Positions 10,418-14,736 of a stretch of DNA of 36,495 nucleotides are shown in pieces; the stretch's first letter is position 1, and each line of letters opens with the position of its first letter. Source of the stretch: Bacteroidota bacterium (GTDB lineage Bacteria > Bacteroidota > Bacteroidia > Palsa-965); the NCBI GenBank assembly GCA_006218065.1, contig VBWE01000027.1, positions 1-36,495 on the forward strand, in the 5' to 3' direction. The position numbers and the translations under genes are program-made. The notes under the pieces are model-generated. The model saw only the letters and a list, made by a program, of their open reading frames with translations, was not told the DNA's origin and made no database searches.

Positions 10418-11122
10418 TTATTCTTCCATAAATGGTTCGAGTACTTTTACCCAAACCGAGTAACCGGCGCGTGTAAAATGAACGCCGTCTTCCGAATATT
10501 CTTTTTTCAGTTTCCCGTCCTCCTCCAGCGCGCTGTGCATGTCGATGTACGTTACGCCGTTCTCTTTGCAGATACTTTTCAGTTCTTCGTTCAGGCCGTT
10601 CACCGTATTGTTCACCGAATTCGCCCAGCGCAGAACGGTAGAAGGCAGATCGACGGGCATCAGGCTCAGGAAATAAATTTTCGTTTCCGGGCTTTCGTTT
10701 TTGATGCGGCTGATGATCGTACGCCAGTTCTCCGTGATTTCCTCATTACTCACACGCTCCACCACGTCGTTGATGCCGATCTCGACGAAAATTTTTCCCG
10801 GTTTCAGTTTGGTGGCAAGCGAAAGCCGGTCGAGCAGGGCGGAAGTCATGTCGCCGCTGATGCCCATATTCACCAATCCGTCCACGCCTAAAGCCGAATC
10901 GTTAAACCAGTCCGTGAGGCTGTTCCCGATCATGATCACCGGCGGTGAGGGCGCTATGGTTTCAAATGCTTTCATCTTTTCATTCCGGTATGCTGACGAC
11001 CGTATTCCGTTCAATGCTTTGTTTGCCACCGACCGGTTGTATTGCCGGTAAGCGATCGGTGCAGCGATGGCAGCTACCAGGAGCAGGATCAGCGCGATGC
11101 GGATGATCCGTTTCCGTTTCAT
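10418..11122 (-). CDS. Membrane-anchored SGNH/GDSL-family hydrolase
   Basis: Encodes 234 aa with an N-terminal basic stretch and transmembrane anchor or signal (about residues 5-25). SGNH blocks are complete: block [11 protein letters not shown] with nucleophile S68, block II NMGISGD with G90, block III EIGINDV with N118, and block V EDGVHF with D212 and H215. The family hydrolyses esters of acylated lipids, sugars or glycans; the closest feel is the PAF-acetylhydrolase/GDSL lipase type. It is probably periplasmic or membrane-bound. Its ATG overlaps the parE stop (ATGA), and parC begins 7 nt after its stop, so it is translationally coupled inside the topoisomerase IV operon. The substrate is unknown. 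Confidence 0.88.
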
Positions 11123-12999
11123 GCTTCTTCTTCCACGATTTCTTTTTCCTGGGCAGCTTCCACCAGGTCTTTTTCCACGCGCAGGTTTTCGATAATGTGT
11201 TTCTGGCGCTGTTCGGTGTTCTTGCCCATATAATAGGAAAGAATTTCTACGATGTTCGCGCCCTGGCCGATGATGACCGGTTCGAGGCGGATATCTTTCC
11301 CGATGAAGTGTTTGAACTCGTCGGGCGAAATTTCACCGAGCCCTTTGAAGCGCGTGATCTCCGGTTTGGCGCCGAGCCTGGCCATGGCCTGCCGCTTTTC
11401 GTCTTCCGAATAGCAGTAGATCGTTTCTTTTTTATTCCGTACGCGGAACAGCGGCGTCTGCAGGATATAAATATGCCCGTTGCGCACAAGTTCCGGGAAA
11501 AACTGGAGGAAAAACGTAAGCAGCAGCAGGCGGATATGCATGCCGTCCACGTCCGCATCGGTGGCGATCACTACGTTATTGTAACGCAGGTTTTCCAGTC
11601 CTTCCTCAATATCGAGCGCCGCCTGGATCAGGTTGAATTCTTCGTTTTCGTAAACTACTTTTTTCGTCAGGCCGTATGCGTTCAGCGGTTTGCCTTTCAG
11701 GCTGAACACGCCCTGTGTATTCACGTCGCGGGCCTTGGTGATCGATCCGCTGGCCGAATCTCCTTCGGTGATGAACAGCGTGCTGGCTAAACGGCGTTCG
11801 TGTTTCAGGTCGGTGAGGTGCACGCGGCAGTCGCGCAGTTTCCGGTTGTGCAGGTTGGCTTTCTTCGCGCGTTCACGGGCCAGTTTCTGGATTCCCGAAA
11901 GTTCCTTGCGCTCGCGTTCGCTGGCCAGTATTTTCCGGTGAAGCGCGTCGGCTGTTTCCGGGTTTTTGTGCAGGAAATTATCGAGTTCCGTTTTCAGGAA
12001 ATCGAGCACGAAGGATTTCATGGAAGGACCTTTCGGGCCGACATCCTGCGAACCGAGTTTCGTTTTCGTCTGTGATTCGAAAACGGGTTCCTGCACTTTT
12101 ACACTGATCGCCGCTATGATGGATGTGCGGATATCGGCCGCTTCGTAATCCTTCTTGTAAAAATCGCGGATCACTTTGACGATCGCTTCGCGGAAAGCCG
12201 CCTGGTGCGTGCCGCCCTGCGTGGTATGCTGGCCGTTCACGAAGGAATAATATTCTTCGCCGTACTGCATATCGCTGTGCGTCATGGCCAGTTCGATATC
12301 TTTTCCGCGCAGGTGAGTCACCGGGTAAACGACCGGGCCGCCGAGATTTTTCTGCAGCAGGTCGCGCAGCCCGTTCTCCGAGCGGATCTTCGTACCGTTA
12401 TAAGTAATCGTCAGGCCCGTGTTCAGGTATGCGTAATTCCACAAAAGCCGTTCAACGTATTCATTGATGTAGTGATAATTCATGAACACTTTATCGTCGG
12501 GAATGAAGGACATGATCGTGCCTTCGTCTTCATCGCAGGGTTTTATACGGGCGTCGTTGATGAGTTCGCCGCGTTTGAATTCGGCGATTTTCGTTTTTCC
12601 TTCGCGGATGGATTGCACGCGGAACCAACTGCTGAGCGCGTTTACGGCTTTTGTTCCCACGCCGTTCAAACCTACGGAAAACTTAAACGCTTCCGAATCG
12701 TATTTCGCACCGGTATTGATTTTCGAAACGCAGTCCACCACTTTACCGAGCGGAATGCCGCGGCCATAATCGCGCACCGTAACCACGCCTTCCTTGATGG
12801 TAACATCGATATTGCGCCCGTTGCCCATCACGAATTCATCCACGGAATTGTCGAGGACTTCTTTCGCGAGAATATAAATTCCGTCGTCCGGCGAAGCGCC
12901 GTCGCCCAACTTTCCAATATACATGCCCGGCCGCAAGCGGATATGCTCTTTCCAGTCGAGCGATTTGATATTGTCTTCCGAGTAATTTGTTTTTGCCAT
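11119..12999 (-). CDS. parE: DNA topoisomerase IV subunit B
   Basis: Encodes 626 aa from 12999 ([16 protein letters not shown]); an in-frame start at 13032 would overlap the preceding gene by 29 nt and add 11 non-conserved residues. The GHKL ATPase domain shows E47/D50/N51 ([10 protein letters not shown]), DYGRGIP and [14 protein letters not shown]. The TOPRIM metal site shows E412 ([11 protein letters not shown]) and D481/D483 (DADVDGMHI). It supplies ATP-driven strand passage for topoisomerase IV together with ParC, encoded two genes downstream. Length fits ParE better than GyrB. The HEPN-like gene ends 4 nt before its start. Confidence 0.93.
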
Positions 13000-13003
13000 A
13001 ACT

Positions 13004-13627
13004 TCAGTGACTTGTTTGGTTTTGATAACCAACTTTAAGTACTAATGATATTCCTGCAAGGAATCCGCTAATAATCCAATTGCTTTCAAGCTTAATCCCA
13101 ACTTCATGGAATTTTTTGTTTCGAATTTCTCTCAATCCGTTTGCAAAATGAGCTTCTTGCTTTGTAATGAGTTTAGAATGATGCGCATATTCAATAACAT
13201 CGGCAAAATCGATATTCTTCTTCTTAGAAGTTTTTTCTTTAAACCAACTTCGGAAACCAGAATCACTTTGATATTTTTCTTTCAATAAGCACTCGATCAC
13301 TTTTGCTAATGTTGCTAATGCCTGTTCTTTCTCTCCAACTTCCGCCATGTTTAATAATGAAAGTATTTCATCAGAAACATTCTTATTAATATACCTGTAA
13401 TCATTGACAAGTTTCAATAATTGTTCCTTGACTTCCTCAGGCAATGATTTTGAAGAGCTAATTTTTTGCCTGATAGAAAGCAATCTATCTTTCTCAAGAT
13501 TGTCAACGCGAGCTTTGAGCTTAACGGATAGAACAACCAAATATGCTATTGTTCCGACAATAAGAATCACAATAACAGCGATCAGTATATTTCTATTCGC
13601 TCGAGATTTTTGTATACTATTCGCCAT
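13004..13627 (-). CDS. AT-rich membrane-anchored HEPN-like protein
   Basis: Encodes 207 aa: one N-terminal transmembrane segment (about 13-34), a short coiled coil (about 36-60), then helices through about residue 180. Near the end [13 protein letters not shown] contains R169-x4-H174, the R-x4-6-H signature of HEPN-fold RNases with Asn directly after Arg. The preceding helical layout ([12 protein letters not shown]) is reminiscent of the DUF4145/HEPN clan. A second hydrophobic stretch lies near 184-198. Two sampled 60-nt lines of the gene have about 32-35% GC, against about 57% in a sampled parE line, suggesting recent acquisition. It sits 11 nt after the ychF stop and 4 nt before parE. No partner nucleotidyltransferase antitoxin is adjacent. 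Nuclease activity is inferred, not shown. Confidence 0.75.
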
Positions 13628-13638
13628 AAGAGAAATAT

Positions 13639-14736
13639 TTACACATTAAACCTGAAATGCATCACATCTCCATCCTGCACAATATATTCTTTTCCCTCGA
13701 TGCCTAATTTTCCTGCTTCGCGGCAGGCGGCTTCGGAACCGAGTTCGACAAAATCGTGGAGTTTGATCACTTCCGCTTTGATGAATCCTTTTTCAAAATC
13801 GCTGTGGATGACGCCGGCGGCCTGCGGGGCGGTCATGCCTTTCTCAATGGTCCAGGCCCGGACTTCTTTTACCCCGGCGGTGAAATACGTCTGGAGGTTG
13901 AGCAGGCGGTAGGCGGCGTGGATCAATTTGTTCACGCCCGGTTCGTCCAGCCCGATCTCGGACAGGAAGGCTTTCCGGTCTTCGTAATTCTCCAGCGCGG
14001 CGATTTCCGCTTCCATGGCTGCAGTAATGATCAGTACTTCGGCCTGTTCGTTTTTCACTAAGTCCATCACGGCCTGGGTATGGGTGTTGCCGGTTTTCAC
14101 CGAAGCTTCATCCACGTTGCATACGTACAGGATCGGTTTGATGGTGAGCAACTGCAGGTCGGCGATGTATTTAAAATCTTCCGGTGAAATTTTCATCGTT
14201 CGCGCCGATTCGCCGCGTTCGAGGGTGGCTTTCATTTCCGTGAGCAGTTCGGTTATTTTTTTCGCGTCCTTATCGCCGGCTTTGGCCTGGTTCACGACTT
14301 TTTTCAGGCGGGCTTCAACGGATTCCAGGTCTTTGAGCTGGAGTTCCATATCGATTACTTCCTTGTCGCGGACGGGATTTACTGATCCGTCCACATGCAC
14401 CACGTTCGGGTCGTCGAAGCAGCGGAGTACGTGGATAATGGCGTCACATTCCCGGATATTGCCCAGGAACTTGTTGCCGAGGCCTTCGCCTTTGCTGGCG
14501 CCTTTAACCAGCCCGGCAATATCGACGATCTCTACCGTAGTCGGTAAAATACGCTCCGGGTGTACCAGTTCGGCCAGTTTATTCAGGCGTTCATCCGGCA
14601 CGGTAATTACGCCCACATTCGGCTCGATGGTACAGAAAGGGAAATTGGCCGCCTGTGCCTTGGCGTTTGAAAGGCAATTGAATAAGGTCGACTTGCCCAC
14701 ATTAGGCAGGCCTACGATTCCACATTTTAAGGACAT
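13639..14736 (-). CDS. ychF: Redox-regulated ATPase/GTPase YchF (Obg family)
   Basis: Encodes 365 aa, the normal family length, from 14736 (MSLKCGIVGLPNVGKST); a frame from 14793 only adds leader. Walker A is GLPNVGKST (9-17), G3 is DIAGLVKGASKGEGLGN, and the degenerate G4 CNVDE is typical of YchF, which prefers ATP. A C-terminal TGS domain ends in the usual YIVQDGDVMHFRFNV. YchF (OLA1 in eukaryotes) binds ribosomes and affects stress responses and translation initiation. It is the first gene of the compact minus-strand block and has its own putative promoter at 14791-14798. Confidence 0.95.
   Translation of the reverse strand: MSLKCGIVGLPNVGKSTLFNCLSNAKAQAANFPFCTIEPNVGVITVPDERLNKLAELVHPERILPTTVEIVDIAGLVKGASKGEGLGNKFLGNIRECDAIIHVLRCFDDPNVVHVDGSVNPVRDKEVIDMELQLKDLESVEARLKKVVNQAKAGDKDAKKITELLTEMKATLERGESARTMKISPEDFKYIADLQLLTIKPILYVCNVDEASVKTGNTHTQAVMDLVKNEQAEVLIITAAMEAEIAALENYEDRKAFLSEIGLDEPGVNKLIHAAYRLLNLQTYFTAGVKEVRAWTIEKGMTAPQAAGVIHSDFEKGFIKAEVIKLHDFVELGSEAACREAGKLGIEGKEYIVQDGDVMHFRFNV

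Follow-up and report, generated by a model that had tools for sequence, protein, structure and literature searches.

Membrane HEPN proteins, HEPN proteins linked to restriction-modification (R-M) and HEPN-TM defence are known already. Group 1 of Anantharaman 2013 (PMC3710099, section 15) comprises DUF4145-like HEPN proteins with one N-terminal transmembrane (TM) helix and a strictly conserved WP. The same paper describes the acidic Ex3[KR] motif of HEPN domains and R-M linkage in at least 16 HEPN clades. It also covers PrrC, a HEPN anticodon nuclease found with the type I R-M system PrrI. HEPN-TM is a defence system of phage satellites (PICI) from Fillol-Salom et al. 2022, as cited in PMC11087260 and PMC12948488. 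Tha is a 301 aa, tail-activated protein of S. aureus prophages. According to PMC11087260, it is a HEPN RNase with the motif RNSIMH that stops phage and needs H270.

The window, a 36,495-nucleotide stretch of Bacteroidota DNA (contig VBWE01000027.1 of assembly GCA_006218065.1), encodes a protein arranged as TM helix, long helix and HEPN domain. The gene (13004..13627, minus strand) starts with ATG, specifies 207 aa and is defined by its ORF, GC3, HEPN fold and homologues. It lies between two housekeeping genes that share its direction: ychF upstream (13639..14736, minus strand) and parE downstream (11119..12999, minus strand). The ychF stop at 13639 leaves an 11-nt gap to the 207-aa ORF, and 4 nt separate the ORF from the parE ATG at 12999. 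These coordinates reproduce the original prediction, made from the sequence alone, which had also noted that no antitoxin gene is adjacent. Indeed, ychF and parE are the only immediate neighbours, with no MNT or other antitoxin ORF adjoining. No insertion-type repeats flank the gene, and promoter and terminator scans at this position gave chance-level results.

No other gene of the window is as AT-rich as this one: its GC content is 0.337 and its GC3 0.284. For the 23 other window ORFs the mean GC3 is 0.622 (sd 0.044, minimum 0.523), placing the HEPN gene 7.7 sd below them. All other 500-bp segments have a GC content of at least 0.454. Hence, the low GC that had been noted was borne out, and the suggested check of codon composition agreed. 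The parE value of about 57% set against it came from one sampled line; overall, GC is 0.522 for parE and 0.525 for ychF. The source assembly of 5.26 Mb has a completeness of 99.98% and contamination of 0.64%. Given this quality, and the host-like genes tightly flanking the HEPN gene, a chimeric contig is unlikely. The gene is compositionally foreign and was most likely acquired horizontally, and recently.

The protein has a single predicted TM helix, as had been proposed. This comprises residues 14-32 (13532..13588, minus strand), with a Kyte-Doolittle 19-mer mean of 3.19. It is the only segment above 1.6, and no second hydrophobic segment was found on this scale. A linker follows (residues 33-77; 13397..13531, minus strand). 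AlphaFold places a long N-terminal helix at residues 3-58, which continues past the TM segment into this linker, and another helix at 64-75. The remainder, residues 78-207 (13007..13396, minus strand), is the range that VIA-align matches to HEPN chains, with Z up to 10.2, and it contains the DUF4145 match (E=0.004).

Structure prediction returned the HEPN bundle that the original prediction anticipated. From a single sequence the AlphaFold model was poor (pLDDT 68), yet it already retrieved HEPN structures. With 12 family sequences, pLDDT rose to 83.6 with pTM 0.72. The best VIA-align match was 2hsb (Z 10.2, rmsd 2.8, 115 residues), a score to be read knowing that helical bundles may reach Z ~13 through common arrangement alone. 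MntA-HepT, di-AMPylated HEPN toxins, Csm6 and MtlR came after it, matching about residues 78-207, and AF_0298 was also among the top rows. Almost all of the top 26 rows were HEPN-superfamily chains and the Foldseek lists were likewise HEPN-dominated. We accept the HEPN assignment because nearly every leading row belongs to a single superfamily and the active-site residues fit as well.

Relationship to DUF4145 (PF13643) was assessed separately. Residues 102-187 score 17.6 bits (E=0.004), under the gathering cut-off of 23.1 bits. Sub-cut-off matches also occur in 6 of 10 homologues (E 8.5e-5 to 0.018), the best reaching 23.0 bits. Using hhalign, the RN..H columns fall in register with local DUF4145 domains, but the match is weak (P=0.003, probability 10). 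On the modelled fold, the protein is HEPN and DUF4145-like, yet outside DUF4145 by Pfam's own rule. Among other candidates, an NCBIfam SecE match (E=0.0016, residues 6-37) was a TM-helix match far under cut-off, a PADLOC 2.0.0 PbeC match was marginal (E=0.014) and PHROG matches mostly reflected N-terminal TM or helix similarity. No convincing model match was found in PADLOC, NCBIfam or PHROG, and the viral fold library gave nothing convincing.

The predicted Rx4H motif is present as R169-NKKF-H174 (codons 13106..13123, minus strand). With N170 as the polar residue after R, it follows the HEPN pattern Rx4-6H. The acidic residue of the Ex3[KR] motif is E112 (codon 13292..13294, minus strand), in E112-x3-K116. 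In alignment A4, residues E112, R169, N170 and H174 are invariant; E112 is also invariant in alignment A1. Since the search pattern for the named-scan rows in A4 itself included IRN..H, these rows necessarily retain the motif, while E112 lies outside that pattern. Among homologues found without the motif, R169, N170 and H174 are kept in five of six informative cases and lost in L058. Hence, the expected conservation of R and H was seen in this unbiased set.

Beyond the window's genome, profile and C-terminal searches of the class sample (395 genomes) identified 7 clear loci spread over 6 genomes. The 11 loci from a named scan are all from Bacteroidota, and several coincide with class-sample loci (e.g. 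Crocinitomix algicola). The phylum-wide sample, searched with A4, returned the window's genome only. Since the class sample also yielded few loci, we consider the family sparse. The full-length protein matched nothing among plasmids, phages and viral contigs, and a single-protein scan of genome contigs was likewise without a match. Phylum-wide full-length matches with E 0.001-0.009 were sensor kinases, other membrane proteins and short unrelated proteins, and were rejected. Of the 14 members whose N-terminal region could be read, 12 have a TM segment that passes the usual hydropathy threshold; it is weak in L094 and missing from L097 (Polaribacter). Our tree contains an R-M-linked clade of five rows (support 100/99), which L096 joins with support 82/85. 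One of the five sits on a short contig with no hsd genes visible. The window protein falls in a loosely resolved group of remaining members.

We examined 14 distinct homologous loci in Bacteroidia. Type I R-M loci hold five of them. Three adjoin other conflict genes, three are solo genes, as in the window, and the last three sit at the end of a contig or on a very short one. In the R-M loci (L101, L103, L104, L096/L087 and L089), hsdM and/or hsdR are Pfam-confirmed. The homologue lies between an hsdS-position ORF and hsdR in L101, L103 and L104, with hsdS Pfam-confirmed in L101 and a GIY-YIG gene also present in L104. In L096/L087 it directly follows hsdR and AbiEii is also present, and in L089 it lies between a DUF4145-fused hsdR and hsdM. 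Because arrangements within the R-M loci differ, a single inherited cluster is argued against. Four of the five R-M members form one clade, so these associations are not fully independent. Except for R-M genes, no conserved partner recurs across the homologous loci. Two further observations concern the R-M loci. Within that of L103 (L103:8522-10197), a DarT toxin and a macro-domain gene come directly after the TM-HEPN homologue. The TM-HEPN gene of L089 (L089:9406-9969) carries a frameshift close to its 3' end as assembled.

Elsewhere, the homologue of L088/L098 is beside multiubiquitin and E1 genes. Pedobacter (L100:2690-13547) has what may be a composite defence locus, where an Avs2-like gene, a metallo-beta-lactamase, TM-HEPN, an unknown gene of 588 aa and an ABC-3C/SMC-like gene follow one another. 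In L058/L091 (L091:9070-10167), TM-HEPN is fused to DUF488 and has lost Rx4H; a second DUF488 gene follows and an M78 peptidase is near. The solo homologues are L094, L097 and L099. The L097 copy has a HemD-like and a RadA-like housekeeping gene on its two sides. A second HEPN protein, Swt1-like with a SEC-C motif (L094:375-1661), is found some 5 kb from the homologue in L094.

The HSDR_N profile test detected no canonical type I hsdR in the genome of the window. Its sole match there is weak (E=7.5e-6) and inside a 979-987 aa ORF that lies elsewhere than the HEPN gene. This ORF belongs to an apparent integrative element (L108, G000:C35:52000-70000) that follows an MnmE-like gene and carries integrase-like ORFs with the 979-987 aa restriction-type protein, its neighbours being judged by eye.

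The family resembles each described system in part. Like group 1 of PMC3710099, it has one N-terminal TM helix and a C-terminal DUF4145-like HEPN domain with Rx4H. Unlike group 1, no family member checked has a WP within its first 60 residues, the DUF4145 score is sub-cut-off, the helical linker is long and members are from Bacteroidota only among those found. As with PrrC, a HEPN RNase is predicted inside hsdMSR loci, in homologues L089, L096, L101, L103 and L104. However, TM-HEPN carries a membrane anchor in place of an ABC-ATPase domain. The window copy is not embedded in hsd genes, so the PrrC-like arrangement is that of the five homologous loci. HEPN-TM, compared by its description in the citing papers, shares a HEPN domain, a transmembrane region and a reported anti-phage role, but has a phage-satellite setting and a different host. 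Tha likewise works as one effector protein, with HEPN at its C-terminus and the RNxxxH motif (R265-NSIM-H270), and acts as a non-specific RNase (PMC11087260). In contrast, Tha is encoded by prophages, has no recognised N-terminal domain and is not reported to have a membrane anchor.

The ychF-parE interval was compared across the 11 other genomes of the family, which is the only one of its order in the collection. In 11 of 11 relatives parE follows ychF on the same strand; including the window's genome, ychF is present, with parE after it in the same order and strand, in 12 of 12. None of the 11 carries the HEPN gene; neither universal presence nor matching composition was observed. In the seven genus g2 genomes this slot encodes a small protein, hydrophobic and about 70-75 aa long (that of G004 is similar but diverged, judged by eye). 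A different small membrane protein, of about 140 aa, occupies it in three of four genus g3 genomes. In G010 the slot is an empty 46-bp gap, while the other ten relatives have it filled. Searches of the g2 and g3 proteins against Pfam gave no convincing family match, and the 73-aa slot protein of sister genomes was not found elsewhere in the window's genome (E=0.26). The slot accepts varied small membrane-protein genes and looks replacement-tolerant; the present state would reflect a gain here or a replacement. Since unrelated small membrane-protein genes fill the slot in relatives, the link with topoisomerase IV is positional. A meaningful pairing with topoisomerase IV is unsupported: other genera have unrelated slot genes, and homologues are in R-M loci or elsewhere.

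We conclude that the gene probably, though far from certainly, encodes a horizontally acquired, stand-alone, membrane-tethered HEPN RNase that serves as a dormancy or suicide effector in phage defence. This is supported by the fold, active-site conservation, the TM segment, foreign composition, sporadic distribution and the defence-locus setting of relatives. Against a defence role, the window gene itself has no neighbouring defence gene. Briefly, the N-terminal helix would anchor the protein in the inner membrane and the long helix that follows probably pairs two chains. Two HEPN domains, which we place in the cytoplasm while the charges flanking the TM segment leave their side of the membrane undecided, would together bring R169, N170, H174 and E112 into an endoribonuclease site that needs no metal. 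The RNase would probably be silent during growth. A phage- or damage-induced event may then activate, release or assemble it, so that cellular RNA is cut and growth stops before phage maturation. Experimental precedents for such a mechanism are PrrC, a HEPN with type I R-M, and Tha, a lone HEPN (PMC3710099; PMC11087260). In relatives, the protein may be coupled to type I R-M in a PrrC-like manner, as a second line of defence. The window copy would occupy the tolerated ychF-parE slot and is probably transcribed with both neighbours.

Other readings accommodate some of the same data. The protein might be a non-catalytic membrane HEPN that binds RNA or a partner protein, as an anchor or regulator of the kind proposed for MtlR, with a motif that is structural only. 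MtlR structures are among the fold matches and some motif-less HEPN domains are thought to be RNA binders (PMC3710099). Furthermore, L058/L091 keeps the TM segment and HEPN domain, has lost Rx4H and gained DUF488, which shows that the fold can persist without catalysis. However, R, N, H and E112 are kept in the window protein and in five of six motif-independent homologues, as expected under selection for catalysis, and we consider this reading unlikely. Distinctly improbable is a toxin of a classical toxin-antitoxin pair with its antitoxin unlinked or lost. The gene is short, foreign and AT-rich, and the strongest fold matches include toxins of HEPN-MNT pairs. These toxins have Rx4HxY (R102, H107 and Y109 in the titles of 7ae2 and 7ae8) whereas here the sequence is H174-E-V, with no Y family-wide. 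Because this Y is missing and an MNT gene is absent, a HEPN-MNT pair is disfavoured. Only 11 and 4 nt separate the gene from ychF and parE, no antitoxin-like ORF adjoins it and, R-M genes aside, no partner recurs across homologous loci.

The tight, same-strand spacing within a housekeeping gene row would also suit a domesticated, Ire1-like factor for RNA decay in envelope stress, co-regulated with parE and ychF and with no defence role. Stimulus-dependent RNA decay has been proposed for membrane HEPN domains (PMC3710099, section 15), and the solo L097 homologue is likewise between housekeeping genes. We regard such a factor as quite improbable: the gene has foreign composition and is absent from all family relatives, unrelated genes take the same slot elsewhere, and relatives are tied to R-M or other conflict loci. 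Returning to the preferred phage-defence RNase, the Bacteroidia family may possibly exist in two forms, a proposal that we make only tentatively. One would be a back-up suicide effector built into type I R-M loci, with the membrane anchor replacing the ABC-ATPase control of PrrC. The other would be free-standing cargo in housekeeping gaps, with the ychF-parE gap as a landing site for small membrane-protein genes.

A membrane-tethered HEPN ribonuclease co-transcribed with topoisomerase IV had been put forward as novel, but tethering as such was described before (PMC3710099, section 15; HEPN-TM, via PMC11087260 and PMC12948488). What is new is a Bacteroidota clade under every family cut-off tested; no description of this Bacteroidia clade was found in the open-access literature searched (one collection). 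If our interpretation is correct, a membrane-anchored clade would be added to the phage-defence HEPN RNases. It would be a small, testable family in which one effector is found within type I R-M loci as well as elsewhere. A comparison of the R-M-linked and solo forms would reveal which of the two, R-M complex or membrane, controls the RNase. Our interpretation would also mean that defence genes of Bacteroidia can sit singly in rows of housekeeping genes, where island-based searches miss them.
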